A stretch of DNA of 28,610 nucleotides. Source: a virus. Within the stretch, counting starts at the first letter, position 1, and the number at the start of each line of letters is the position of its first letter. The translations under genes and the position numbers were made by a program. The stretch spans positions 1-28,610 of IMG/VR virus record IMGVR_UViG_3300030329_003052; one strand, given 5' to 3'. The notes under the pieces are model-generated. The model ran no database searches. It was not told where the DNA came from and was given only the letters and a program-made list of their open reading frames with translations. Positions 1,415 to 13,498 of the stretch are shown here, piece after piece.

Positions 1415-1816
1415 TCAAAACGGCACGTCGGCATCATCAATTGGGCTTTTGTTTGCGGGCTCTTTACTTGGGGCGGCGTTGTCGCTTTTACTTCCCACAA
1501 AGTTGAATTTTTCAAGTATCACGCCGAGCTTGTGCCGGCGTTTGCCCTCTTTGTCGTCCCATTCGTCCATTTTCAAACGTCCCTCAAGCAATATTGCCCG
1601 GCCTCTTTGCATATATTGGCCAATGGTTTCGGCCGTTTTGCCAAAGGCATCCACGTCAACGAATGTTGTATCTTCGACGGTTTGCCCGTCTTTATCGGTG
1701 TATTTTCGATTTAGTGCCAAACTTAGCTTGGCGACTGCCGTGCCTTTTGGCGTGTATCTTAGCTCGGGGTCACGGGTCAGGTTTCCCATTAATATCACTT
1801 TATTAAATGCGTTCAT
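1415..1816 (-). CDS. ssb: Single-stranded DNA-binding protein
   Basis: The 133-residue protein is a complete short SSB. The OB fold is clear from NKVILMGNLTRDPELRYTPKG at the N-terminus, followed by TTFVDVDAFGKTAETIGQYMQRG and the ILLEGRL strand. A flexible Ser/Pro/Lys linker follows, and the acidic tip DDADVPF is the canonical partner-binding tail. It coats single-stranded DNA during phage replication and RecT recombination. The ATG is preceded by an A-rich leader with no Shine-Dalgarno sequence. The 63-nt gap after rusA is one of the few non-overlapping junctions in the early operon. Confidence 0.97.
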   Translation of the reverse strand: MNAFNKVILMGNLTRDPELRYTPKGTAVAKLSLALNRKYTDKDGQTVEDTTFVDVDAFGKTAETIGQYMQRGRAILLEGRLKMDEWDDKEGKRRHKLGVILEKFNFVGSKSDNAAPSKEPANKSPIDDADVPF

Positions 1817-1879
1817 GTTTTGTTTTTTTAGTTGTTAGTTTTTTGAGCGTTTTCTCGCTTAAATTCTTTTTGATTCTGA

Positions 1880-2326
1880 TTACTGGTTTATTTCTGCAAT
1901 TGAAATTTGGCATCCGCTTTTGTCTCCATACTGTTTGGTTGTTGTCAGGTGTGTCACTTGTGAGTCGTCATCCCAAAATTTTAACTCGGTTAACACGTCC
2001 AAAACTGCCTTGGCGAGATTGTCGCAATCTGGCTTTTTGGTGTGAGCTTTCGGGGCGTCGGGCTTTATTAAATGCGAATATTTTCCCGATCTGAAATGCG
2101 ACTTGGGGCGTTCAAATATAAACCCCAAATTGACGCTGATTGAGCCGGCCAATGGTTGCACGGGTTTCACCCCTTCATTGAATACTGCGATTTTTACTGA
2201 TTGGCGCCATCCCTTGACGTTGCTTGGCGTATACATTCGGACAACTCCGCCGATTGCAACGGCCCGCGGTCTTGGTTGTGGCTTTGGGATGCCGGGGGCA
2301 AAGAAGTTGCGAACGTGTGCGGTCAT
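1880..2326 (-). CDS. rusA: RusA-type Holliday junction resolvase
   Basis: The 148-residue protein is a RusA family endonuclease that cleaves four-way junctions. The N-terminus has the GIPKPQPRPR segment. The catalytic core is KPDCDNLAKAVLDVL followed by FWDDDSQVTHL, with the acidic residues that bind magnesium. Start and stop overlap the methyltransferase end by 4 nt (ATGA), so the two are coupled. Its place beside SSB, RecT and an exonuclease fits processing of replication or recombination intermediates before packaging. Confidence 0.95.
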   Translation of the reverse strand: MTAHVRNFFAPGIPKPQPRPRAVAIGGVVRMYTPSNVKGWRQSVKIAVFNEGVKPVQPLAGSISVNLGFIFERPKSHFRSGKYSHLIKPDAPKAHTKKPDCDNLAKAVLDVLTELKFWDDDSQVTHLTTTKQYGDKSGCQISIAEINQ

Positions 2327-3243
2327 TTTGGAATTGCTTTGATTATTTCTTCGGCGATTTTCGGCACGATAGCGTTGCCGAGTCCGCGCAATCGGTGTGC
2401 CCGCTCGGGTATCCCATAAGCCACTCGACCCACGTCGGGCTCAATTGGCCACACTTGTCTGAAACTACCATTGAAAGATTCAATTGTTTGCCTTTTGCAA
2501 TGCGCCTTTTGATTGCCGGCATCGCCAGGTTTCCCCGATCTCGATTGTCGGTTGCGCTCGGCGTTGGCCAAAGTTTCACCGCATTCGGCAGCGTGTCCGC
2601 CGGGTAATTCTTTCGCTTCTGTCTCCCCGCTCCGCTCACACCTTTGAAGTCTCGCGCTGCCGGCGTTGGCCAAAGCTTCACTTGGCCCGTCAACAATTGT
2701 TCGTTTTTGCGGTTGCCTCCCCGACTCGTTTGACCTCCCGTGGCGTTTGCTACTTGGGGAGTCTGCCAAAGTGTCGGTTCCGAGAATCCACACTCGATCT
2801 CGCCGGTGTCGGGCATCGACGGCGCAAGCTGGAATAATAAACGTTTGCGCGGCGTAGTTTTCGCCCTCCAACGAATCAAGCACGTCGTCGAGTTCCATGT
2901 TGACGATTCCAACAACGTTTTCGCCCACAATGTAATTGGGTCGCGCTTCCGTAATAACTCGCAACATTTGCGGCCAAATCGCACGGTCATCGCTTGAGCC
3001 TCGCTTGAGCCCGGCTTGACTATATGGTTGGCAAGGAAATCCCCCTGTGAGCAATTTGACGCCTTTGAATTGCGTGCCGTCAAAGTCGTGGATGTCGTCG
3101 AAGATTGGGACGCTCGGCCAATGCTTTCGCAAGACTCGCTTGCAAAATTCGTCTCGCTCAACAAATCCAACTGTTTCATATCCGCAACGATTTGCCGCAA
3201 TAGCAAAGCCTCCAATCCCGCTGAATAAATCCAAGTGTGTCAT
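2323..3243 (-). CDS. C5 cytosine-specific DNA methyltransferase
   Basis: The 306-residue enzyme transfers a methyl group from S-adenosylmethionine to carbon 5 of cytosine. Motif I is DLFSGIGGF at 5-13. Motif IV is GGFPCQPYS, with the catalytic cysteine at about residue 71. Motif VI is GENV around 107-110. Motif VIII is RHRRDRVWI at about 145-153. Motif X is RGLGNAIVP at about 286-294. The stretch between VIII and X (about 160-265) is low complexity and polar, where the target recognition domain should be. It coincides with a second conserved-looking frame (see next entry). The gene starts right after the TGA of the DnaA-domain gene and overlaps rusA by 4 nt. No cognate restriction enzyme is visible, so it is an orphan, probably protecting phage DNA or acting as a regulator. 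Confidence 0.95.
   Translation of the reverse strand: MTHLDLFSGIGGFAIAANRCGYETVGFVERDEFCKRVLRKHWPSVPIFDDIHDFDGTQFKGVKLLTGGFPCQPYSQAGLKRGSSDDRAIWPQMLRVITEARPNYIVGENVVGIVNMELDDVLDSLEGENYAAQTFIIPACAVDARHRRDRVWILGTDTLADSPSSKRHGRSNESGRQPQKRTIVDGPSEALANAGSARLQRCERSGETEAKELPGGHAAECGETLANAERNRQSRSGKPGDAGNQKAHCKRQTIESFNGSFRQVWPIEPDVGRVAYGIPERAHRLRGLGNAIVPKIAEEIIKAIPK
2343..3179 (-). CDS. Overprinted frame inside the methyltransferase gene, conserved-looking protein
   Basis: The same strand in the +1 frame is open for about 290 codons. Possible starts are TTG at 3215, ATG at 3179 and ATG at 2990. The product is not random-looking. It has WAKTLLESSTWNSTT, RLLFQLAPSMPDTG, repeated LWPTPxAxD boxes (KLWPTPAARDFKG and KLWPTPSATDNRDRGN), then LSPTWVEWLMGYP near the C-terminus. 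I recognise this WPTPTA-D...NPTWVEWLMG pattern as a recurrent phage protein associated with C5 methyltransferases, function unknown. Either it is a separate overlapping protein or a frameshift joins it to the methyltransferase. Translation is not proven from sequence alone. Confidence 0.55.
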   Translation of the reverse strand: MKQLDLLSETNFASESCESIGRASQSSTTSTTLTARNSKASNCSQGDFLANHIVKPGSSEAQAMTVRFGRKCCELLRKRDPITLWAKTLLESSTWNSTTCLIRWRAKTTPRKRLLFQLAPSMPDTGEIECGFSEPTLWQTPQVANATGGQTSRGGNRKNEQLLTGQVKLWPTPAARDFKGVSGAGRQKRKNYPADTLPNAVKLWPTPSATDNRDRGNLAMPAIKRRIAKGKQLNLSMVVSDKCGQLSPTWVEWLMGYPSGHTDCADSATLSCRKSPKK

Positions 3244-3612
3244 TCATGTCAGATCAACAAACTCGGCAAGTACCTTGGCCCGATCTTCGGCCAAATCTTT
3301 GTGAACATCGCAAAAATTGTTCACACGTCTCCGGGCATACGAAACCGTTGAATGTTTACGGTTAAAAACTTTACCGGTTGTCTCTTGGGTAAGTCCGGCA
3401 ATTTGGCAAATGTCCATTGCAACGGCGCGTTGCCATGACAGTAAATCCGTTCGCTTTGTGCTTTTTAGTTGTTCTAATGTTGAACCGTATATTTCGGCGA
3501 CTCGTTGCCCAATGCGTTCACCAAGTTCGATGTTGTTGTTGTTTCGGTTTGGCCGCGTGTTGTGAAATGTTTCACCGTCAAGCGGATGCATTGGCGGGAG
3601 TTTCTCACTCAT
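3244..3612 (-). CDS. Stand-alone DnaA domain IV (DNA-binding) protein
   Basis: The protein has 122 residues from ATG 3612, with a GTG three bases upstream also possible. After a polar N-terminus, residues 33-100 match the C-terminal DNA-binding domain of DnaA: VAEIYGSTLEQLKSTKR, then RAVAMDICQIAGLTQETTG, then the signature-like NRKHSTVSYARRRV. The AAA+ ATPase and domains I-II are absent, so it can bind DnaA-box-like DNA but not assemble an ATP-driven helicase loader alone. It overlaps the exonuclease gene by 8 nt. Being in the same operon as the iteron-carrying replication gene, it could modulate phage origin firing or compete with host DnaA. That role is inference. Confidence 0.88.
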   Translation of the reverse strand: MSEKLPPMHPLDGETFHNTRPNRNNNNIELGERIGQRVAEIYGSTLEQLKSTKRTDLLSWQRAVAMDICQIAGLTQETTGKVFNRKHSTVSYARRRVNNFCDVHKDLAEDRAKVLAEFVDLT

Positions 3613-4672
3613 CACGAAAATCCTTTGCCAAGCTTGGCGCGTTTTGTTTTTCGGTCGTGTTGCCCTCTAAAATGTTGGCAAGCGTTTCGTCGAGTTGCTT
3701 GCCCTTGTGCCCCGTCTTGTCTTTGATCAACGCTTTCAGCTTCGTTTTGTTCACGTCACAAACTGCCGCAAATTCCTGCCCGTCAACGCCGTGAATTGCC
3801 GCTTGGTAAAACACGCCCTCGGGGCTTGTAATTTGTTGGCGTGTGGCGCCCGGCTTTAATTTGTAGCCCGGAATGGCTTCGGGGTTTTCCTTCAATGCCG
3901 CTTTGGCATTTACTTCGATTTGGGCAATGACCTTTTTGACGATGGCGCATTTTTCCAAAAGCTCGGCGTTTGGTACTGCCGGCAAATTTGTTTCATAAAT
4001 TTCGATCATGTTTTTTTCTGTTTCGGGGCACGTTGTTTTTGCTTTGCAATAGCGGCATCCGCTTTCGGTTGCGTTGCGGGGTGGGTTTTCTTTTTCTACA
4101 TCTTCAAGCAAATCTAAAACTTGGACATAAGAAACCATTATTGCTTTGCGATCATATTGGGCAAAAGTTGAAGGGGTTGAATGGTTCCGCGGCTGAATGA
4201 TGCCGGTCTTAATTGTTTCAAATGGCCCAAAATTGTGATCAACCAAAACAAGCAACGCCCGCAATTGCATATTTATTGCCGCTTGCTCAACCGGGATTGG
4301 CCCGGTCTTGTAATCAATCACAAACGCCTCTTTGCCTAGTAGGCAAATCAAGTCAGGTTTGCCGCTAAACTGTTTGACTCCATCAATATCAAACCAAAGA
4401 CGTTTTTCCCGTATTTGTTCAGCGTTTTGATACCCGCAATCTTCAAGCGTGTGTTGTTCGATTTTTTTAATAACTCCAACCGTCTTGGCCGTTTCGTCGT
4501 CAAGCTCATCAATGTGAATTTCACCAGCAAGACAAGCGTGCCCAAGGTCGCCCGCTCGACTCATTTCATTTGATTCGTCGGGCAAACCTTGTTCCGCTTG
4601 CCAACTGCCGCGGCATTTTTCAAAGCGATCAAAATTACTTGCGCTTGGTAAGCCTTGGCGTTCGTCGGTCAT
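3605..4672 (-). CDS. PD-(D/E)XK exonuclease (RecB/Cas4-like, DUF2800-type)
   Basis: The 355-residue nuclease has a clear PD-(D/E)XK core: SGKPDLICL at about 103-111 supplies the first Asp and FVIDYKTG at 117-124 supplies the second acidic residue and lysine. His45 in GHACLAG matches the upstream histidine of RecB-family nucleases. Cysteines at about 20, 206, 209 and 215 (FEKC, CRYCKAKTTC) resemble the Fe-S-binding set of Cas4/AddB. It overlaps recT by 4 nt, and the pair forms a two-component recombination system in which this enzyme resects double-strand ends for the annealase. A C-terminal helical extension (about 230-355) is of unknown role. Cas4 itself is unlikely without any CRISPR locus. 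Confidence 0.88.
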   Translation of the reverse strand: MTDERQGLPSASNFDRFEKCRGSWQAEQGLPDESNEMSRAGDLGHACLAGEIHIDELDDETAKTVGVIKKIEQHTLEDCGYQNAEQIREKRLWFDIDGVKQFSGKPDLICLLGKEAFVIDYKTGPIPVEQAAINMQLRALLVLVDHNFGPFETIKTGIIQPRNHSTPSTFAQYDRKAIMVSYVQVLDLLEDVEKENPPRNATESGCRYCKAKTTCPETEKNMIEIYETNLPAVPNAELLEKCAIVKKVIAQIEVNAKAALKENPEAIPGYKLKPGATRQQITSPEGVFYQAAIHGVDGQEFAAVCDVNKTKLKALIKDKTGHKGKQLDETLANILEGNTTEKQNAPSLAKDFRDE

Positions 4673-5496
4673 TCTTCGGCCTTTGGTTTTTTTGCGATTT
4701 TTTCGATGATCTCTTGTGCTTCTTTTGTCGATTCGCCCATTGGGATTTCGTCGGGCTCGGGAAGCTCGACCGGCGTGTTGAATATTGGCTTGGCCGCGTT
4801 GAACTTTTTGTTGAAATCGGGCGCGTCATCGTCCCTTTCAAGTGAATGCTGAACCTCGGGCGATAATGGCCAACGCTTCGAATGGCGCCGAATTACGGTC
4901 TTGCGGCACATCTCATCAAAATCAGTTTTCCAAGGCCCGGATTGCCCGGCTTTTGACCGTTTGCGGATTGCCTCGCATTCGTCGCGGGTCATCACTTCAT
5001 AATCTAAAAAGTCAAAACCGTCTTGTGACCATTTGGCCCGTGAATAAACGCAAACCAAGTCGCCGCGGGGCTTTGTGTAATCGACTTGATGCTTCACTTG
5101 CGTTGAGCCGGTGCCGTCGTCTTCGATCACTTCAAACAAATCGTTTTCTCGGACAACCTTTGACGTTGCGTTGACGCCGTTTCGTCGAGCCAATGCCAAC
5201 AAGCCTTTGTAAGAAATGATTAGCGTGCATTCTCTTTTAAACGGGATTAAATAGGCGTGTTGCCCGTCTGGCTCAATGCCGGCACTTGCACAATCGAGAA
5301 TGCAACGAAACAAAGTCGCTTGTGTGCAATTTTCAAGCTCCGGTGTTCGTTTCATTGTTGTCTCAGCGACACGAATTAAACGTTCGGGCGTCAAATAGGT
5401 CGGTGCCGCTTTTGCCACTTGCTCGGCAAATTCGTCACTTTGTAAAAGTTCCTTGATTGTTCGCGTGTCTTTTTTCTTTGCTATTTCAGTAGTCAT
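4669..5496 (-). CDS. recT: RecT family single-strand annealing protein
   Basis: The 275-residue protein shows the RecT core: YLTPERLIRVAETTMKRTPELENCT, FRCILDCASAGIEPDGQHAYLIPF, then LIISYKGLLALARRNG. Later come DEMCRKTVIRRHSKRWP and an acidic tail that could bind partners. It anneals complementary single strands exposed by the neighbouring exonuclease. The ATG has an A-rich leader and no Shine-Dalgarno sequence, suggesting S1-type or leader-independent initiation. Length is typical of the family. Confidence 0.96.
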   Translation of the reverse strand: MTTEIAKKKDTRTIKELLQSDEFAEQVAKAAPTYLTPERLIRVAETTMKRTPELENCTQATLFRCILDCASAGIEPDGQHAYLIPFKRECTLIISYKGLLALARRNGVNATSKVVRENDLFEVIEDDGTGSTQVKHQVDYTKPRGDLVCVYSRAKWSQDGFDFLDYEVMTRDECEAIRKRSKAGQSGPWKTDFDEMCRKTVIRRHSKRWPLSPEVQHSLERDDDAPDFNKKFNAAKPIFNTPVELPEPDEIPMGESTKEAQEIIEKIAKKPKAEE

Positions 5497-5511
5497 TTTG
5501 GTTTTTGGTTT

Positions 5512-5829
5512 TTATTTGTCCGCCACACTTTCGCGAGTTCGAAAAAACCCGTCGTGTTTCGGAAATTCTTTGTGAAATTTGCGTGCATAAAAGGGCGCAA
5601 AATTGTTGTTTATTTTGTAATCACCGCCCGAGGTTGCGATTGATGTTTCCCAGCGAATGCGCTGAATGATTGCCATCGAACCAAAGTGATCAGCTTGTGC
5701 CTCAATCACTTCGTGTGCGAAATGGACAAACAATTGCCACACGCGGGGGTTTGCTCGGTCGAAGTCTTCAAACGCTTTTTGTGACGCTGTTTTTGGCGCT
5801 TCAAAGCTCATTTCAAATTGATCAATCAT
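5512..5829 (-). CDS. Conserved phage protein of unknown function
   Basis: The protein has 105 residues from the ATG that overlaps the upstream stop as ATGA. The sequence FDRANPRVWQLFVHFAHEVIEAQADHFG followed by IRWETSIATSG and DYKINNNFAPFYARKF, then GFFRTR, is a pattern I recognise from many phage early regions. It is a small helical protein of unknown function with conserved WE, INNN and YAR positions. It directly precedes recT, so a recombination or replication accessory role is likely but unproven. Confidence 0.8.
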   Translation of the reverse strand: MIDQFEMSFEAPKTASQKAFEDFDRANPRVWQLFVHFAHEVIEAQADHFGSMAIIQRIRWETSIATSGGDYKINNNFAPFYARKFHKEFPKHDGFFRTRESVADK

Positions 5830-6008
5830 AATACTGCCAAAAGTATGATTGCGCTGATTGCAACGGCCGAGTAAACCCAAGCAACGGCTTTGCAAGCGGG
5901 GCAAGGGGGATAAACTTCCGGGCGCTTTTTGCGCGTTGTTTTGATGATTTTGCGGTTGCTTGTTGCTGCAAAACACGCGGCCCAAGTTGCGTTTGTTTGT
6001 GTCTTCAT
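5826..6008 (-). CDS. Small protein with C-terminal membrane anchor
   Basis: The 60-residue protein overlaps both neighbours by 4 nt (ATGA). The N-terminal half is basic, followed by a Cys pair (PPCPACK, about 35-41), then a hydrophobic helix to the last residue (VYSAVAISAIILLAVL). It looks like a tail-anchored inner-membrane protein with its N-terminus in the cytoplasm. The family is not recognised. Confidence 0.65.
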   Translation of the reverse strand: MKTQTNATWAACFAATSNRKIIKTTRKKRPEVYPPCPACKAVAWVYSAVAISAIILLAVL

Positions 6009-6163
6009 TTTGTGCGTCGTTTTTCAAATTTTTTGATTTCCTCCGGTGCAATTCGAATGGTTCGGCTTGTCAATTGTTTGACCTTAAAAAGCTTCGCTTC
6101 TTTCCATCGGTGAACCGTTCGTGTTGAAACGCCGAAATATTCGGCAACGTCTTTAATTGTCAT
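6005..6163 (-). CDS. MerR/excisionase-type helix-turn-helix protein
   Basis: The 52-residue protein is MTIKDVAEYFGVSTRTVHRW at its start, a textbook HTH_17 fold, then a basic wing and PEEIKKFEKRR. It is the size of phage excisionases and AlpA-like activators. It is the first gene of the early operon, directly downstream of three operator repeats, and its stop overlaps the next start. The operator-embedded promoter suggests its expression is the switch controlled by the RHH regulator. It may be the recombination directionality factor for the integrase at 7066-8163. A transcription-factor role is equally possible. Confidence 0.82.
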   Translation of the reverse strand: MTIKDVAEYFGVSTRTVHRWKEAKLFKVKQLTSRTIRIAPEEIKKFEKRRTK

Positions 6164-6171
6164 TTTTTAAG

Positions 6172-6200
6172 TTTAAAAAGGTGAGCCACACCCGCGGCAA
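6172..6200 (-). promoter_or_regulatory. Candidate early promoter with operator in the spacer
   Basis: On the minus strand TTGCCG (6200-6195) and TTTAAA (6177-6172) are separated by exactly 17 nt, and that spacer contains the GGTGAGCCACACC copy at 6180-6192. A protein bound there would block RNA polymerase. The predicted start of transcription falls within a few bases of the ATG at 6163, so the mRNA would have almost no leader. Both boxes are weak matches, so this is tentative. Confidence 0.42.
6180..6192. promoter_or_regulatory. Operator-like repeat copy 1 (GGTGAGCCACACC)
   Basis: This 13-nt site has GGTG and CACC half-sites around a 5-nt centre, typical of an operator for a dimeric regulator. 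It is embedded in a 26-nt direct repeat shared with copy 2, which also includes a trailing CCGCGG motif. Confidence 0.7.
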
Positions 6201-6213
6201 AAAGGGGGCACAA

Positions 6214-6226
6214 GGTGAGCCACACC
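6214..6226. promoter_or_regulatory. Operator-like repeat copy 2
   Basis: It is identical to copy 1, 34 nt away, and followed by the same CGCGGCAAAAA extension. Spacing near three helical turns would let bound dimers interact. Confidence 0.7.
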
Positions 6227-6257
6227 CGCGGCAAAAAAACGCCGCAATTAACATTTT

Positions 6258-6270
6258 GGTGAGCCACACC
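6258..6270. promoter_or_regulatory. Operator-like repeat copy 3
   Basis: This is the exact GGTGAGCCACACC core without the CGCGG extension, 44 nt from copy 2. It lies just downstream of the membrane-protein gene in transcription order. Confidence 0.68.
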
Positions 6271-6298
6271 TTTGATAATAAAAAAAAGCATTGCGTGA

Positions 6299-6820
6299 TC
6301 AGTTAAAAAATTTTTGATCTGATATTTGTGCATTTTCTTTTTCTTTGTTTGCTTTAGTAAAAGCCTCCCATGCTCTCGGGTCTTCTTTTTGCGCTTGCAC
6401 CATTCTTATCAAATCTTCAATTCCATTTGGTGTTTCGTGTAGTATTTCTCGCGCAATAAGGCCGTCATAAAGCAATTGATTTCCAAATTCTGCCGTCTTC
6501 CAAAATGTTTGTTTCATTCTGTTTTCATCGCCAAACAGGGGATTCAATGCAAGCTTGTTGAGGCATTCATTCATTTCATAAACATCGTTTACTTGAGCCA
6601 TTGCAGTCGCTCGCCAAAACAGTTTCCAATATGCTTCGCGGTTTTTTGCATATTTTAGCCGCTCGTTGTGTTTATCGTTAAAATAAAGACCAATGATGAG
6701 AATTGTCACAAATATGATTGCAACACTTTGAAACCTTTGTGTGTTTAAGATTTTAAAAATATTTTTATTTGCACGTTTTGTTTGCGCTTGATGCAAGCGA
6801 GTCATTACTTGTTCTTCCAT
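6299..6820 (-). CDS. Single-pass membrane protein, accessory gene
   Basis: The 173-residue protein has a basic N-terminus, one transmembrane helix at about 32-47 (SVAIIFVTILIIGLYF) and a soluble, Trp/Asn-rich C-terminal domain probably outside the cytoplasm. It overlaps the RHH gene by 16 nt, so the two are co-translated. It is more AT-rich than the rest of the early operon. The family is not recognised. Its location in the control region and membrane topology suggest a lysogen-expressed moron, for example superinfection exclusion, but nothing in the sequence proves this. Confidence 0.65.
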   Translation of the reverse strand: MEEQVMTRLHQAQTKRANKNIFKILNTQRFQSVAIIFVTILIIGLYFNDKHNERLKYAKNREAYWKLFWRATAMAQVNDVYEMNECLNKLALNPLFGDENRMKQTFWKTAEFGNQLLYDGLIAREILHETPNGIEDLIRMVQAQKEDPRAWEAFTKANKEKENAQISDQKFFN

Positions 6821-6999
6821 TTTTTAATTTTATCCCTTGTTATTTTTTCGCTGCCGTCGTTCAACTCCGATATTAAAAACTCGACAACTTCAGTCAAAGT
6901 CATGTCATGTTCATCGGCCAATTCTTTCAGTTTTTCCTTGTCGTTTTCCCAAAGATACATCGACAAGCTACGCTTACGATCATCTCTTTGGTTTGGCAT
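6805..6999 (-). CDS. Ribbon-helix-helix (Arc/CopG-like) transcriptional regulator
   Basis: The 64-residue protein has the RHH layout: basic N-terminus, beta strand RSLSMYL (10-16), helix A ENDKEKLKELADEH (18-31), turn and helix B TLTEVVEFLISEL (34-46), then a basic tail. Such proteins dimerise and insert the strand pair into the major groove of short palindromic operators. The GGTGAGCYACACC sites flanking its operon (7051-7063 upstream, 6180-6270 downstream) are natural candidates for its targets, including its own control region. With no CI-like protein present, it is the best candidate for the lysogeny regulator. Confidence 0.83.
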   Translation of the reverse strand: MPNQRDDRKRSLSMYLWENDKEKLKELADEHDMTLTEVVEFLISELNDGSEKITRDKIKKWKNK

Positions 7000-7050
7000 T
7001 AGGTGTCAACTCTCGTCTGTTTATGTCTTTCAAAGGCGACAACTTGCCTC

Positions 7051-7063
7051 GGTGTAGCTCACC
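7051..7063. promoter_or_regulatory. Operator-like repeat copy 4, inverted
   Basis: GGTGTAGCTCACC here is GGTGAGCTACACC on the minus strand, one change in the centre from the three copies at 6180-6270. It lies about 50 nt upstream of the RHH start and just past the integrase stop, as expected for autoregulation. Confidence 0.65.
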
Positions 7064-7065
7064 CG

Positions 7066-8163
7066 TCAAGGCATTATTGAAAAAAACTTTTCGGCATCCT
7101 CGGGCTCGACCAAGTTAAGGTAAAATTCTTCAATCATTTGCGGTGAATTGCCGGCCGCGTGTGCCGTTTCGTTTTTGTTTTTAAAACGGGCGACATGGTA
7201 CGAACAAAATGAATGACGCATGACGTTTGCGGCCGTTTGCAATTTGGCGGATTTGCGGGCCTTGATGAATTGCGCTTCAGTCGCCGGCTGAACGCATCCC
7301 GCGGCCATTGCGGCCTTGAGCCATGCGACGGCGTTTGGCGTGATCTCGATAATGCGACGTTGCCGCTTCTTTGCTGCCGCGCCTCGGACGGTCACGGTTG
7401 GGGTTTCCTTGTCTAATTTAAACTCTTTTGGCGACGTGTAAATTGCCTCGGACACACGAAGCCCACAAAGCAACACCAAGACGACAACGAGCCCAACCTC
7501 AGGCACTTGAATCGCGGCCCGCAAATACGGTTCAACGTCTTCGATGGCGAAAATCTCGGGGTCGTCGGCGTCGATCTCGATTTTCTCAATGTCGAACGGG
7601 TTAAATCGGCCGACTTCAAAGTTTTGTTTGGAAATCCAATTTCGAAGCGTGTTCAAATGCCCGATGTAATTGTTGACGGTTTTCGGCTCAAATCCTTGAT
7701 CAAGCAACCAGTCTTGAAAATCAACCTTGGCGATCTGGTGAAAATCGCGGTCATCAAAAATCATTCCGACGTGGCTGAATGTGGATTCGTAAGTTTTAAT
7801 TGAACGCGGTCGCAAATTCTTCAGCTTTTTGCCGGCAATAAATCTATCGCGGGCAGCTTCAAACGATAGCGTTGGTAGACACTCGGGGGATTTTTCAAAC
7901 TCCGCGCAAGCGGCGTGAATGTTGTACCCGTTTTTTTCGGCCCGCAAATAGGCGTTGAGCAAATCAATCTTTACATCGTCGGGGAGGGCGTGCAGTTTCG
8001 CGACCGCGCCGGCTCGGTCATTCTTGATTGATTTCAAATGCAACTCGGCGGCGCCCTTTGTGTCAAAAAACCGGCGGGCACGTTTCCCGTCGATTCGATA
8101 TTCTGTCATGTATTTGGTAACGCCGCGAACGTCTTGTTTTGTAACGCCTCTCACTTTTTTCAT
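7066..8163 (-). CDS. int: Tyrosine site-specific recombinase (phage integrase)
   Basis: The 365-residue protein joins phage and host DNA at a tRNA gene. Residues 1-90 are an arm-binding region. Residues 100-190 are a SAM-like core-binding domain (ARDRFIAGKKLKNLRPRSIK). Residues 205-360 are the catalytic domain with Arg236 (LCGLRVSEA), lysines 265-266, Arg316 (VMRHSF) and Tyr348 (IEEFYLNL). The usual His of H-x-x-R is Asn313, and the position before the tyrosine helix (usually GH) is Asn339, so two auxiliary residues are replaced. The gene lies 160 nt from the attP core, as is standard. The C-terminal style suggests a Verrucomicrobiota-related lineage. Confidence 0.95.
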   Translation of the reverse strand: MKKVRGVTKQDVRGVTKYMTEYRIDGKRARRFFDTKGAAELHLKSIKNDRAGAVAKLHALPDDVKIDLLNAYLRAEKNGYNIHAACAEFEKSPECLPTLSFEAARDRFIAGKKLKNLRPRSIKTYESTFSHVGMIFDDRDFHQIAKVDFQDWLLDQGFEPKTVNNYIGHLNTLRNWISKQNFEVGRFNPFDIEKIEIDADDPEIFAIEDVEPYLRAAIQVPEVGLVVVLVLLCGLRVSEAIYTSPKEFKLDKETPTVTVRGAAAKKRQRRIIEITPNAVAWLKAAMAAGCVQPATEAQFIKARKSAKLQTAANVMRHSFCSYHVARFKNKNETAHAAGNSPQMIEEFYLNLVEPEDAEKFFSIMP

Positions 8164-8734: not shown

Positions 8735-9156
8735 GAATCGTTGACGTTGGTTGTGCTTGCCGTGTCGGTGCCCGAGTAACTAATTGCCGACAGCGTGGCC
8801 GTGTAGGCCGTTGAGCCGATCTTGTATTTCGGATGACCGAGGCCAATTGCCGCAACTTCAGTATGTGCCAAGCCCGAGCAAGACACGCTTAAAGTTGACC
8901 CGCTCGATGTGGTTGAGCCGTCCGTTGCCTTGACCGTGTACTCGTAATTTATCGCGGCCAAGTCGGGCGTCGTTCGCGGCGGGCCAAAGTCGATAAAGTT
9001 GGTTGCGGTTGTCTCGGCCAAATATGCCGGCGTTGTGCCAACGTCTTCGTCCATGCGATAAATCAAATATTTTGTCGCCCCGGTTACGGCATCCCAAGTC
9101 AACTTGATGCCGGCCAAGTTTTCGTAATCTTCAGCAAGGTTGGCAGGGTCAGTCAT
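8695..9156 (-). CDS. Fibronectin type III-like tail-associated protein
   Basis: The 153-residue protein starts 8 nt inside the end of the giant tail gene. Residues 10-90 form an Fn3-like domain: KLTWDAVTGATKYLIYRM, then YEYTVKATDGSTTSSGS. Such domains decorate phage tails and bind surface sugars. The remaining part is Ser/Thr-rich. A similar Fn3-like unit occurs in the preceding 1449-residue protein, suggesting a shared origin by modular duplication. It is probably a tail tip or fibre accessory. Confidence 0.7.
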   Translation of the reverse strand: MTDPANLAEDYENLAGIKLTWDAVTGATKYLIYRMDEDVGTTPAYLAETTATNFIDFGPPRTTPDLAAINYEYTVKATDGSTTSSGSTLSVSCSGLAHTEVAAIGLGHPKYKIGSTAYTATLSAISYSGTDTASTTNVNDSCALTLAKSLSRL

Positions 9157-12100
9157 TGAATTCGTAATCGGCTTCGACTAGATCAATTTTAATCCACATC
9201 GGTTTGGTTGTGAACGGCGTAAAAACTGACGTGCAATGACTACCAAAGCCGGCAAAGTAATTTGTCGCGCTGATTGACCTTTGGTCGTAACTGAACGCGC
9301 TTGATTTGGTAAATTCCGAATAAAACGGGTTTTCGGCCGCGTCGATCACTTGCCCATCTTCAAAAAAGCCACATACGTCAACGTCTTCCTCAATCGCTAA
9401 ATATTTTTCCGTTGTGACGGTGATGGGCGAACCACTTTGCCCGTTTGTGCCGTATGAACCACTTGCGTCGATCTTGTGCCGCTTGAAACTGTGATTTGTC
9501 ACGCCAAGCAATCCCGGCGCCGCGGTGAATTGTGATCGAATCGTGGTCGGCAACGCATATTTAATCGGCTCATCTTGAACGCGAACCTCGCCCTTGTAAT
9601 TGCGCGAAACCAAATAAATATTGCCACTTGTTGCGGTCAATGCGCCTTGTATTTGTGTACTGTTACAATTCAACGTAAATGGCCCGCCTAAATCGACTTC
9701 ATAACTTGAATCAATCGACGTTCCGGTTGCCCATGTAGTTGCATCAGTTACAAGCGCCCTGTCGCTGATTGCGCTGCCTCCGTAAGAGCCGGTTGCTTCG
9801 ACGTTTATGATTCCAAAATTATCAAGTGAGGCAACATTTGTGTCGCCCTCGGAACACTCTAGCGGGTGGTCGTCTGTATCAATTCCGGTGTCGCCTTTTT
9901 CGGTGCCTAAATAAGTGACGGCAGAATGACGATATTCAAACGTCAACGGCAATTCAATGCGGGCTCGTTGCAGCAAGTTCACCGCGCTGACTAAATTGTT
10001 GAAAATTCTGGCGTAAAGGTTGGTGTTTGGAAACGGCCCGAAACCTTGGGCGTTGTCTTCGCGAATGTCGCCCGGCAAAAACTCCATCCATCGTTTTGAG
10101 CCGTTGTAATCGGCTTCGATTCGATATTGCTGTTTTTTTTGCGTGCTTAATAAAGTGATTGGCGAATCGGCATCGAGGGCGCTTGATTTTCCTGCCGTCC
10201 AGCTTGAACCCGTCCAATAAACCCACGTTGATGAAGAATTTCCCCGGCCGCGTAAATAGTAGCGCACGCGGTCAACATCAGTCGCAACCCAATTGATTGT
10301 GTGCCCGCCGGCATCGGTATCGGTCACGGTAAAATCAACAAGCTCGCTTGTGCCTTTGCCGTAACCGTAAGCCAAATAATAACTGTAACTCGTTGACGTT
10401 GTGATCGTCGGCGTGACCTCTTGGGCAATCAAGTGTTTCTCGCCATCGGTATCGACCCCATAAACCGTATAAAGAACGCCCTCGACTGCCTCCCAATCAA
10501 GCGTTGTGCCGTCTTTAGTAACCGCAACGGGGTCAAGATACTTCGGGCCTTGCCTCAACGCTTGTTGGCAAAGATTTGGAAAGGTGTAATCGTAAAGCCG
10601 GCTTTGATGCGTGCAAGTCAGTTTAAGCGTGGATTCCATGTCAACAAACCCGCCGCAAATCGCTTGCAAAATAAATTCCATATAAAGCAACTCGTCCGAA
10701 AATGCCGGCGTGTCGGACGTGTCATAATTGTCGGGCTTATCGTTGTAAACGTGGCGGATGTTTCGGCTGAAATAAAAACGCGGAAAGCAGTTGCCAAAAA
10801 AATCGTTGGTGTAAAAACCTGAGCCATTGTTGGCATCAATCGCAACGTCGCCGGTTCGCAACGTGCAATTTTGGCCGGCGTTAACATACAGCAAATATTC
10901 AAGCACGGCGTTTTCGTCGGTTCGATATTGTGGCGCATAATCTCCCGTTGTTGCGTTCTGCCATCCGGTAGACGTGTTGGCGATGACGATTCCGCTGCCG
11001 GTTGGCGTGATTGGTGCCGACTCGTTTTGCAATCTGCCTTTCAGCGTTACCTTGACGCCGGTTGCCCCGTTTCGCTCGACCTTTTCGATTTCGTAATCCG
11101 GGCGATAAATTTGGCAGCTTTGCAAATGGTTTTTGACGCCCGTGCAATCGGTTGAGCTTGCCGCGTTTGTGCAAGCGCCGGCAATGGTGTTTTGACTTTG
11201 AACCATTGAATTCCAGCCGGGAAAATAATCGTCGCCCGTCCAATGGGTTCCAAGCAAATGCCGGTATCCGGTTGGATTCTCGGGCCGCATGATTGGTTTT
11301 TGGTTATACGTCACATGACGGCGGATTTCTTGGGCTTCGGATGTTGAATGGCGCCACGCATCCGATAAAAAGGTGCAACGGTCATTTAAAAAACCCAACA
11401 CGTCGGCAAACGCCTCGGGTTTGTAAATTGACGAATCGGAATTTTTGTAAACGTTCGTTGAAACAAACATTTGCCATTCATTCGTCTGCCCGCGTAATGG
11501 GTCTTTTTTGTCATCGGGCAGGGGAGTTGATCGAATCCCGTTAGTCGGCACAACATAAGCAACCGGGTCGGCGTCGCTTGGGCTTGTGGTGTAATCCCGC
11601 TCATTGGTCGCCGTGAACGTCTGCCCGTCGGTGTAGGTCGTGCCCTCGTACTCTACCCCATAACTTGATTCATCGCTGACAACCTCGTAAACCTCGCCCT
11701 GCACCAAGTCGCCGCTTGCAACTGAATCGGTCGAAGCAGCAATCCCGCGGAAAACGTCCAAATCTTTATTGTTCATCCCGCGGGCGTAACGGTTGAAATA
11801 TAAAACAGATTTTTTCGTGCTGTTTTCTTCAATAACTTCATACCCCGTCAACAAATGCCGTTCGGCCAAGCGGAGCGAGTCGTGAATCATTTGCCGGCCC
11901 GCCTCATAAACCGGGTTTGTGTTGATTTGATCTTCGCGATCAACGCCGCCGACGTTGCTTGATAAATTGGCAATGCAACCGATCTCAAGCAAGTTTTCGC
12001 CGGCAGCTTTGGCGCTGGAAAACGTTTCGCCGCGTTTGTCCATGCTGCCAGACAATGTGGCGCAACTTGCTAATCGCGTGACAACGTATGCGTCATAAAT

Positions 12101-13498
12101 TCCGGGCGCATAGTTCAGCAACTCGGCGACCTCGATGGTCACGTTTGCCCCACTCGGAAAAAAACTTGCCGTTTTAAATTCAACCAAACATTCGCGCCGT
12201 GGATGCTTGAAGTATTGAAGATGATCGCCGCCCTGACTGAGCGTGAACGTCGTCAACGTGTCGCCGTCGGCAATCACGTCAATTGATATTTCGCCGCTGA
12301 ATGAGCCCGAGACGCTTGCGTAAAATCCCCCAAAACAAAACTTGTCGTTTATTTGGTAAGATGTCGCCGAATCAACGTCAAATGTTCGCCCGCTTTCATT
12401 TGGGCCGTTTTTGGTGAATGACTTATATTGTGCTGTAATGTTGCCGCTTGAAACCGTTCCGTAACTTGGCGCCAACGGGTATTGGCTTGTTAAGAAATCT
12501 TGAAAGGGAAACGCCCGGCTTGAAACAATATCCGTATTGTCGCGCTCGCTTGTTGTTCCTCGGTACTCTTTCGCAAAGAAATTTAAAACCTGGTTGAGTT
12601 GTTGGCCTTTGACTCGTTGCAAATAAGCTTCGTCATTGTACGGGCCTTCATTCCAATCGGCCAACGGTAGTGATTCGACGGTGCCGTTGAATTTAAGCAA
12701 CAAATAAGAGGCGAAACCCTCATAATACAAATAAACGTCGGTCGGGTTTTCCGGGCAAGTTCCAAACGTTTTGTCGGCAACGCCCGAAACTAATGAATCA
12801 AATTTCAGCGTGTAGTTTGGCGAGTAACCATCTTCACAAGTCGGCGTTGATGAATTGATTGCCGGGACGCCGTGAAAACCTCCGTACCCCTTCAGATAAT
12901 ATTGCGACGGGGCATAATCAATTTTGCCATGCTCTTGAGCCGCGGCCAACGCGCAAGCCGTTTTAAAATTGCGATCAAGCGACGGGTTCCATGCGCCGCG
13001 TTGATGCTTGGCCAAAGTCCAATAATGTTCGTTTGTGGTTGGCGCGGTTATGCTGCCGCCGACAACCAAATAAAGCGGAATGCCTGTCGGCGGGTCGGTA
13101 GTTGACTCGGCACCGTCAAAACGTCCATCCGCATTAAGTCTGCCGTCTTCAGCTTCAATCTCGGGCTCGCGTCCATAAATAAACGCGCCCATCGGATTCG
13201 CGACGTTTATGCCCTCGGGCAAACCCGGCCCGGCTTCGGGCCAACGCAAATCGCTATCCTTTGGGATGTGAGAATAAAACTTCCACCATTCATCTTCCGC
13301 GGCCCAATTGTTGCCACCGGCATCCGGGTTTCGCATTCCCCGAAAAAGCGAATGAGCATACCAAAACAAGCGCCAAGACGGGTCGGCGACGCCTTGTTTC
13401 AACCGATCATTGAACGCAAGGGCGAGCTTGTTGTAGTCCCTCGATGATAAGCGTTTGCCCGGCCAAACCTTTTCGGCTTTTGTATATTCAACCGGCAT
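9149..13498 (-). CDS. Giant tail tip / fibre protein (1449 residues)
   Basis: This is the largest gene, in the position of the central fibre or host-specificity protein downstream of the tape measure. The N-terminal 350 residues begin PVEYTKAEKVWPGKRLSSRDYNKLA and include MGAFIYGREPEIEAEDGRL. I have seen this style in marine phage contigs without function. The middle is rich in beta-forming Ser/Thr/Gly. Near residues 1000-1070 is an Fn3-like segment (TTLDWEAVEGVLYTVYG, then SYYLAYGYGKGTSE). It has no obvious catalytic motif or membrane segment. A role in receptor binding or tail tip assembly is inferred from size and place. It starts just after the stop of the 66-residue gene. Confidence 0.8.
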   Translation of the reverse strand: MPVEYTKAEKVWPGKRLSSRDYNKLALAFNDRLKQGVADPSWRLFWYAHSLFRGMRNPDAGGNNWAAEDEWWKFYSHIPKDSDLRWPEAGPGLPEGINVANPMGAFIYGREPEIEAEDGRLNADGRFDGAESTTDPPTGIPLYLVVGGSITAPTTNEHYWTLAKHQRGAWNPSLDRNFKTACALAAAQEHGKIDYAPSQYYLKGYGGFHGVPAINSSTPTCEDGYSPNYTLKFDSLVSGVADKTFGTCPENPTDVYLYYEGFASYLLLKFNGTVESLPLADWNEGPYNDEAYLQRVKGQQLNQVLNFFAKEYRGTTSERDNTDIVSSRAFPFQDFLTSQYPLAPSYGTVSSGNITAQYKSFTKNGPNESGRTFDVDSATSYQINDKFCFGGFYASVSGSFSGEISIDVIADGDTLTTFTLSQGGDHLQYFKHPRRECLVEFKTASFFPSGANVTIEVAELLNYAPGIYDAYVVTRLASCATLSGSMDKRGETFSSAKAAGENLLEIGCIANLSSNVGGVDREDQINTNPVYEAGRQMIHDSLRLAERHLLTGYEVIEENSTKKSVLYFNRYARGMNNKDLDVFRGIAASTDSVASGDLVQGEVYEVVSDESSYGVEYEGTTYTDGQTFTATNERDYTTSPSDADPVAYVVPTNGIRSTPLPDDKKDPLRGQTNEWQMFVSTNVYKNSDSSIYKPEAFADVLGFLNDRCTFLSDAWRHSTSEAQEIRRHVTYNQKPIMRPENPTGYRHLLGTHWTGDDYFPGWNSMVQSQNTIAGACTNAASSTDCTGVKNHLQSCQIYRPDYEIEKVERNGATGVKVTLKGRLQNESAPITPTGSGIVIANTSTGWQNATTGDYAPQYRTDENAVLEYLLYVNAGQNCTLRTGDVAIDANNGSGFYTNDFFGNCFPRFYFSRNIRHVYNDKPDNYDTSDTPAFSDELLYMEFILQAICGGFVDMESTLKLTCTHQSRLYDYTFPNLCQQALRQGPKYLDPVAVTKDGTTLDWEAVEGVLYTVYGVDTDGEKHLIAQEVTPTITTSTSYSYYLAYGYGKGTSELVDFTVTDTDAGGHTINWVATDVDRVRYYLRGRGNSSSTWVYWTGSSWTAGKSSALDADSPITLLSTQKKQQYRIEADYNGSKRWMEFLPGDIREDNAQGFGPFPNTNLYARIFNNLVSAVNLLQRARIELPLTFEYRHSAVTYLGTEKGDTGIDTDDHPLECSEGDTNVASLDNFGIINVEATGSYGGSAISDRALVTDATTWATGTSIDSSYEVDLGGPFTLNCNSTQIQGALTATSGNIYLVSRNYKGEVRVQDEPIKYALPTTIRSQFTAAPGLLGVTNHSFKRHKIDASGSYGTNGQSGSPITVTTEKYLAIEEDVDVCGFFEDGQVIDAAENPFYSEFTKSSAFSYDQRSISATNYFAGFGSHCTSVFTPFTTKPMWIKIDLVEADYEFND

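Follow-up and report, generated by a model that had tools for sequence, protein, structure and literature searches.

The locus that we analysed very probably encodes a C5-cytosine methyltransferase (C5-MTase) that is split into two polypeptides, both encoded by one DNA segment in two different frames. The locus lies on the minus strand of a virus record, and the whole stretch of 28,610 nucleotides that was analysed is called the window here. In the arrangement that we propose, alpha (frame 0) would supply the catalytic domain with motifs I-VIII together with motif X, and beta (frame +1), which overlaps nearly all of alpha, would supply the target-recognition region (TRD) and motif IX. The one enzyme that alpha and beta would then form together is most likely an orphan methylase with which the phage marks its DNA, for instance as a protection from host restriction. 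We also think it rather likely that the C5-MTases of phages and bacteria include a large family in which catalysis and recognition are divided over two frames in this way, and that the TRD boxes, motif IX and motif X have switched frame in actinophages.

The features of the locus and the neighboring genes are listed in Table 1. A preliminary description of this DNA had noticed that the minus-strand frame at +1 to the methyltransferase is open for about 290 codons. That is indeed the case: no stop interrupts the frame over 298 codons, as far down as position 2343, and 290 codons are counted from a TTG. The motifs that had been quoted from this frame are also all present, namely ESSTWNSTT, RLLFQLAPSMPDTG, three LWxTP boxes, and LSPTWVEWLMGYP, the last of which lies within positions 2391-2450. 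The LADS/LANA filler repeats of alpha are encoded by the same DNA as the LWxTPxxxD boxes of beta, and EPDVGRVAYGIPERA of alpha by the same DNA as the motif IX-like segment of beta. Judging from the codons, the conserved EPxVGRVAxGxPxR of alpha may largely be motif IX of beta seen in the other frame. Because the motif IX-like segment of beta ends just ahead of motif X of alpha, the order VIII-TRD-IX-X is kept along the DNA of the window even though the frame changes.

A replication and recombination module surrounds the locus on the minus strand (positions 1415-8163). The longest ORF of the window, with 1449 codons, is also on the minus strand (positions 9149-13498).

Table 1. Features of the alpha/beta locus and its neighborhood in the window
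Feature	Position	Strand	Remarks
SSB	1415-1816	-	
RusA	1880-2326	-	
Alpha, C5-cytosine methyltransferase catalytic subunit (predicted), motifs I-VIII and X	2323-3243	-	306 aa; PF00145 E 3e-41 over residues 1-211
Beta, overprinted +1-frame protein	2343-3215	-	up to 290 aa from TTG; exact start uncertain
Alpha motif X, GLGNAIVPKI	2356-2385	-	weak alignment to HhaI 297-319; invariant LGN in alpha alignment
Beta motif IX-like GQLSPTWVEWLMGYPSGHTD	2391-2450	-	10 invariant columns in 73 sequences; hhalign to actinophage in-frame IX
Beta LWxTPxxxD boxes, three	2547-2774	-	spacing 96 and 102 nt
Beta box LWPTP	2547-2576	-	
Beta box LWPTP	2649-2678	-	
Beta box LWQTP	2745-2774	-	
Alpha motif VIII, ARHRRDRVWILG	2779-2814	-	
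Beta conserved core, SSTWNSTTCLIRW...RLLFQLAPSMPDTG	2802-2906	-	predicted beta hairpin; RLLFQLAPSMPDTG itself at 2802-2843
Alpha motif VI, GENVVGI	2905-2925	-	
Alpha motif IV, GGFPCQPYSQAG	3010-3045	-	catalytic Cys
Alternative beta start ATG (MKQLDLL...), putative	3177-3179	-	overlaps TGA of 23-codon ORF from ATG 3247
Candidate beta start TTG	3198-3200	-	GGAGG 8 nt upstream (3209-3213)
DnaA C-terminal domain protein	3244-3615	-	
DUF2800/PDDEXK	3605-4672	-	
RecT	4669-5496	-	
Weak integrase match	7066-8163	-	

Conservation and selection in the two frames

An open run as long as that of beta arose in 15 of 20,000 permutations of alpha's own synonymous codons. Against a beta-family profile that was built without the window, the beta of the window scored 348 bits, whereas 1000 synonymously permuted alpha genes scored 115 +/- 18 bits and 177 bits at most. 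A chance ORF was rejected on these values, and the earlier impression that the motifs of the second frame exceed chance was borne out. The resemblance to the beta profile alone is not proof, because the permuted genes still score 115 bits. That is, the conservation of alpha leaks into the second frame, as would be expected if this frame merely reflected how alpha is conserved and which codons it uses. Tests of selection were therefore run.

The third codon position of alpha is the second position of beta. In pairs with 90-99% alpha identity, the differences per codon position were 0.053, 0.027, and 0.16 outside the overlap and 0.055, 0.005, and 0.024 inside it; the third-position value thus fell from 0.16 to 0.024. 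For frame-aware rates, single changes were sorted by their effect in both frames in 24 disjoint pairs. The dN/dS values were 0.12 (bootstrap 0.09-0.16) and 0.13 for beta, and 0.21 and 0.19 for alpha, and the rate of doubly silent changes (0.243) was close to the synonymous rate outside the overlap (0.229). In the TRD-IX-X part, which follows motif VIII, beta was stricter (0.04-0.10) and alpha was relaxed (0.28-0.70). The order was reversed at alpha codons 55-110, where alpha was stricter; of the two estimates for beta there, that of 0.82 depends on a single doubly silent change.

These results indicate that purifying selection acts on both frames of the family and not on the methyltransferase frame alone. 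The evidence from selection is for the family and not for the window, because the window is absent from the pairs (its nearest relatives are about 50% identical). Considering the codon-position signature, the frame-aware rates, the 348 bits against the maximum of 177 in the shuffles, and the full-length MTases described below, which do not show the beta signal, the probability that alpha alone accounts for the second frame is negligible. Dual coding is established at the level of the family. For the window itself dual coding is well supported, through its conservation and the shuffles.

Because beta is more constrained over the recognition region, the so-called recognition domain of alpha is of low complexity. 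The preliminary description had regarded this low complexity as the price of dual coding. The direction of that proposal holds, in that alpha is relaxed and beta is constrained, but the cause is likely to be different: the segment of alpha would be filler, since recognition and motif IX are likely encoded in beta.

Occurrence and translation start of beta

By tblastn, 121 phage records matched beta at E below 1e-5, and relatives of beta were encoded in at least 582 of 599 candidate stretches of viral contigs. In the first set of loci, which consisted of the best 80 of the at least 582 viral relatives, seven named phages, and the window, all 88 loci had beta nested in alpha with the same +1 relation of the frames. 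The second set comprised 93 loci, from 80 bacterial contigs and 13 additional phages. In 92 of them the +1 overlap was found; four of these 92 also had the C-part in the MTase frame, and the one remaining locus was intron-split. For the third set, 80 viral loci were retrieved by means of the alpha profile only, and two E. coli loci were added. Beta was present in 82 of 82 loci of this set, although some of its contigs are common to the first set. Homologues of the second frame with the overlap intact are thus present in independent genomes. Beta without alpha was not seen in the loci fetched for the three sets. The first and second sets were picked by similarity to beta, and because of this beta-based selection the statement that beta is never alone draws more strength from the second and third sets than from the first.

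Methyltransferases in 20 bacterial genomes that contain the alpha/beta loci served as a control. All 22 full-length MTases in these genomes, that is, those matched by PF00145 end to end or nearly so, were without the C-half of beta, and two of them had weak matches to the N-part of beta over the PCQP region. In contrast, beta was carried by seven of the eight MTases that were matched over the catalytic part only.

We considered whether the job of beta, as a genuine overprinted protein, is a separate one, for example that of a regulator or an anti-restriction protein, with alpha being a complete MTase alone. Beta is selected as its own protein, its N-terminal half, which lies over the catalytic motifs of alpha, is conserved and is itself no MTase motif, and the first structure search of beta matched nothing; all of this would agree with such a job. 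However, the invariable presence of alpha beside beta in the loci fetched, the contrast between full-length and partial MTases, and the TRD-like boxes, IX, and X of actinophages, which occur in either frame as one two-part enzyme would give, make a separate job of beta unlikely.

As to annotation, the relative of beta in phage Shelly is called 'g55 internal gene', that in phage K1ind2 is called 'putative Mte8-like protein', and in the two E. coli records alpha is annotated and beta is not. The beta of the window matches phrog_1008 (PHROG 1008, 'DNA methyltransferase') at E 4e-39. A single chromosome assembly of a Roseovarius MAG (OX638333.1) contains the alpha/beta locus five times, with identical match statistics, which suggests repeated prophages or an assembly artefact. 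In one viral contig (L038, positions 1708-2766) the matched region of alpha has one in-frame stop and the beta frame is open.

In 55 short-type relatives beta has an internal start, mostly near codon 56 of alpha. The first possible start codon is ATG in 44, GTG in 7, and TTG in 4 of them, and it is generally located 1-5 codons past an in-frame stop. The mean anti-Shine-Dalgarno energy before the internal start was -6.9 kcal/mol, compared to -2.9 kcal/mol at control positions and -5.5 kcal/mol at alpha starts, and a strong Shine-Dalgarno match was found in 85% of the 55 relatives. The Lys codon that forms the Shine-Dalgarno site was AAG in 39 of 39 cases, against 61 of 100 elsewhere (p 3e-7).

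In another group, of 13 relatives, the starts of alpha and beta are 4 nt apart in the arrangement RTGAATG. The window falls in this group, yet it has no beta-frame ATG at the usual site. At the start of alpha it has ATGAATG (3241-3247), the second ATG of which is in the frame of alpha. The start of beta in the window is uncertain, and TTG 3200 and ATG 3179 are the candidates. The overlap of the latter with a TGA is a possible coupling site.

An overprinted partner protein and a frameshift-fused alternative C-terminus had both been proposed for the second frame. The former is strongly supported by the independent homologues, the undisrupted overlap, the purifying selection in both frames, and the internal Shine-Dalgarno starts in relatives. 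The latter would require a programmed ribosomal frameshift that joins motifs I-VIII of alpha to the C-half of beta in a conventional single chain. A fused chain seems viable in principle, because gp70 of phage ShiLan is of this kind (see below). But frameshift fusion is not needed, because the relatives start beta internally with its own Shine-Dalgarno site, in most short-type relatives at a conserved start codon just behind an in-frame stop. Moreover, a single shift would drop the conserved motif X of alpha, and the N-terminal half of beta is itself conserved. We therefore consider a frameshift very improbable.

Distribution of the enzyme motifs between the frames

Alpha has the marks of a C5-MTase, namely motifs I, IV (PCQ), VI (ENV), VIII (RxR), and a weak X (GN). 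The alpha profile aligned to residues 12-174 of M.HhaI, which contain motifs I-VIII, and weakly to residues 297-319, which contain motif X. In this alignment no counterpart of HhaI 175-296, that is, of the recognition domain and motif IX, was detectable in alpha; the TRD and motif IX that lie in frame between VIII and X in a single-chain C5-MTase were not found there. The earlier statement that the same DNA provides MTase motifs and the TRD holds for motifs IV, VI, VIII, and X, which are encoded in the MTase frame, but neither a TRD nor motif IX is recognisable in that frame. The preliminary description had named neither motif IX nor the precedent of M.EcoHK31I. In agreement with the alignment, the AF2 model of alpha was confident for most of residues 1-160 and had a C-terminal helix at the motif X end, and it matched HhaI with Z 21.2 and rmsd 2.8 over 182 aligned residues. 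For most of residues 185-288 the pLDDT was below 50, with no structure.

Beta has the near-invariant end GxLxPxWVEWLMGYP. This C-terminus matched the in-frame PRLAPAFSEWMMGWPAGWVT of actinophage MTases with an hhalign probability of 93.6 over 19 columns, and in the single chain of ShiLan gp70 the PRLAPAFSEWMMGWPAGWVT-type segment is preceded by the recognition region and followed by motif X. Motif IX of HhaI, LTPRECARVMGYPDSY, fits the end of beta without gaps. From the 19-column profile match, the position, and the pattern, the end of beta looks like motif IX. Pfam gave no match to pieces of beta, motif IX included, NCBIfam gave no match to beta, and PDB sequences gave a chance-level match only. 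A short actinophage profile of IX and X had weak matches in the PDB to a plant DNA methyltransferase (4onq/4onj, E 0.87), which are suggestive only. The AF2 model of beta alone had a pLDDT of 61, and no MTase domain or meaningful fold match was found for it with Foldseek and VIA-align. This poor model is uninformative and gives no evidence for a new fold of beta.

The actinophages differ in the frame that carries the modules. Motifs IX and X are both in the beta frame in Upyo (Gordonia phage) and GaugeLDP (Mycobacterium phage), and ReT1v-1 and CheeseTouch have the boxes in the beta frame and IX in alpha. In ShiLan, motifs I-VIII, the boxes, IX, and X all lie in the single ORF of gp70, with a remnant of the +1 N-part. 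Over these five phages and Samy, motif IX, and X where it is visible, occurs in either frame. Each motif comes from one of the two frames, as a joint enzyme predicts. The TRD boxes, IX, and X of actinophages appear to have moved between the frames, which is apparently new. The annotated start of the second methylase ORF in actinophages often misses its overlapping N-terminal half.

The alpha/beta arrangement, which was first recognised in the E. coli enzyme M.EcoHK31I, is widespread in phages and bacteria, and the second protein is usually absent from genome annotations. If our reading is right, many records with a single 'DNA cytosine methyltransferase' would be half-enzymes, alpha cloned without beta would be inactive or altered as an enzyme, and predictions of specificity would look at the wrong region. 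Same-strand dual coding would also be represented in this family by a large number of natural, long-lived cases, with the enzyme half that is missing from one frame kept in the other. Models of the evolution of overlapping genes and of enzyme modules changing frame could be tested there.

Comparison with known methyltransferases

According to PMC3404938, M.EcoHK31I of E. coli (YGGCCR) consists of two polypeptides, the larger of which has motifs I-VIII, X, and a predicted TRD and the smaller of which has IX only, and M.AquI (CYCGRG) occurs naturally as two separate polypeptides, each complementing the other. The window resembles M.EcoHK31I in that its large subunit has motifs I-VIII and X without IX, and its small subunit carries the IX-like motif, which is at a collinear position and to which Pfam is blind. 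The beta of M.EcoHK31I is reportedly made from a second reading frame inside its alpha gene; in the window and the family, too, the small subunit is in another frame inside the large-subunit gene. The published TRD of M.EcoHK31I was predicted in the large subunit, whereas our data favor a TRD in beta. Unlike the E. coli enzyme, the locus of the window lies in a virus record, and no restriction endonuclease was recognised among the neighbor genes tested with Pfam.

The window shares with M.AquI the split into two polypeptides. However, M.AquI is split in tandem and has X and half of the variable region on the small subunit. In the window the genes are nested and motif X is in alpha, so that IX and X are not both on the small subunit; Upyo and GaugeLDP look more like M.AquI than the window does. 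Alpha is similar to M.HhaI and other single-chain C5-MTases in its catalytic part and fold, and differs from them in having no detectable counterpart of HhaI 175-296. The annotations of PHROG 1008, Shelly, and K1ind2 are likenesses at the level of names, without a mechanism; Mte8 is presumably UniProt's name for M.EcoHK31I.

In the open literature searched, we found no description of the breadth, dual selection, or module movement of a widespread overprinted MTase subunit. We therefore think that the alpha/beta arrangement is of a known, little-noticed kind, and that its breadth, the dual selection, and the frame-changing TRD and motif IX appear new.
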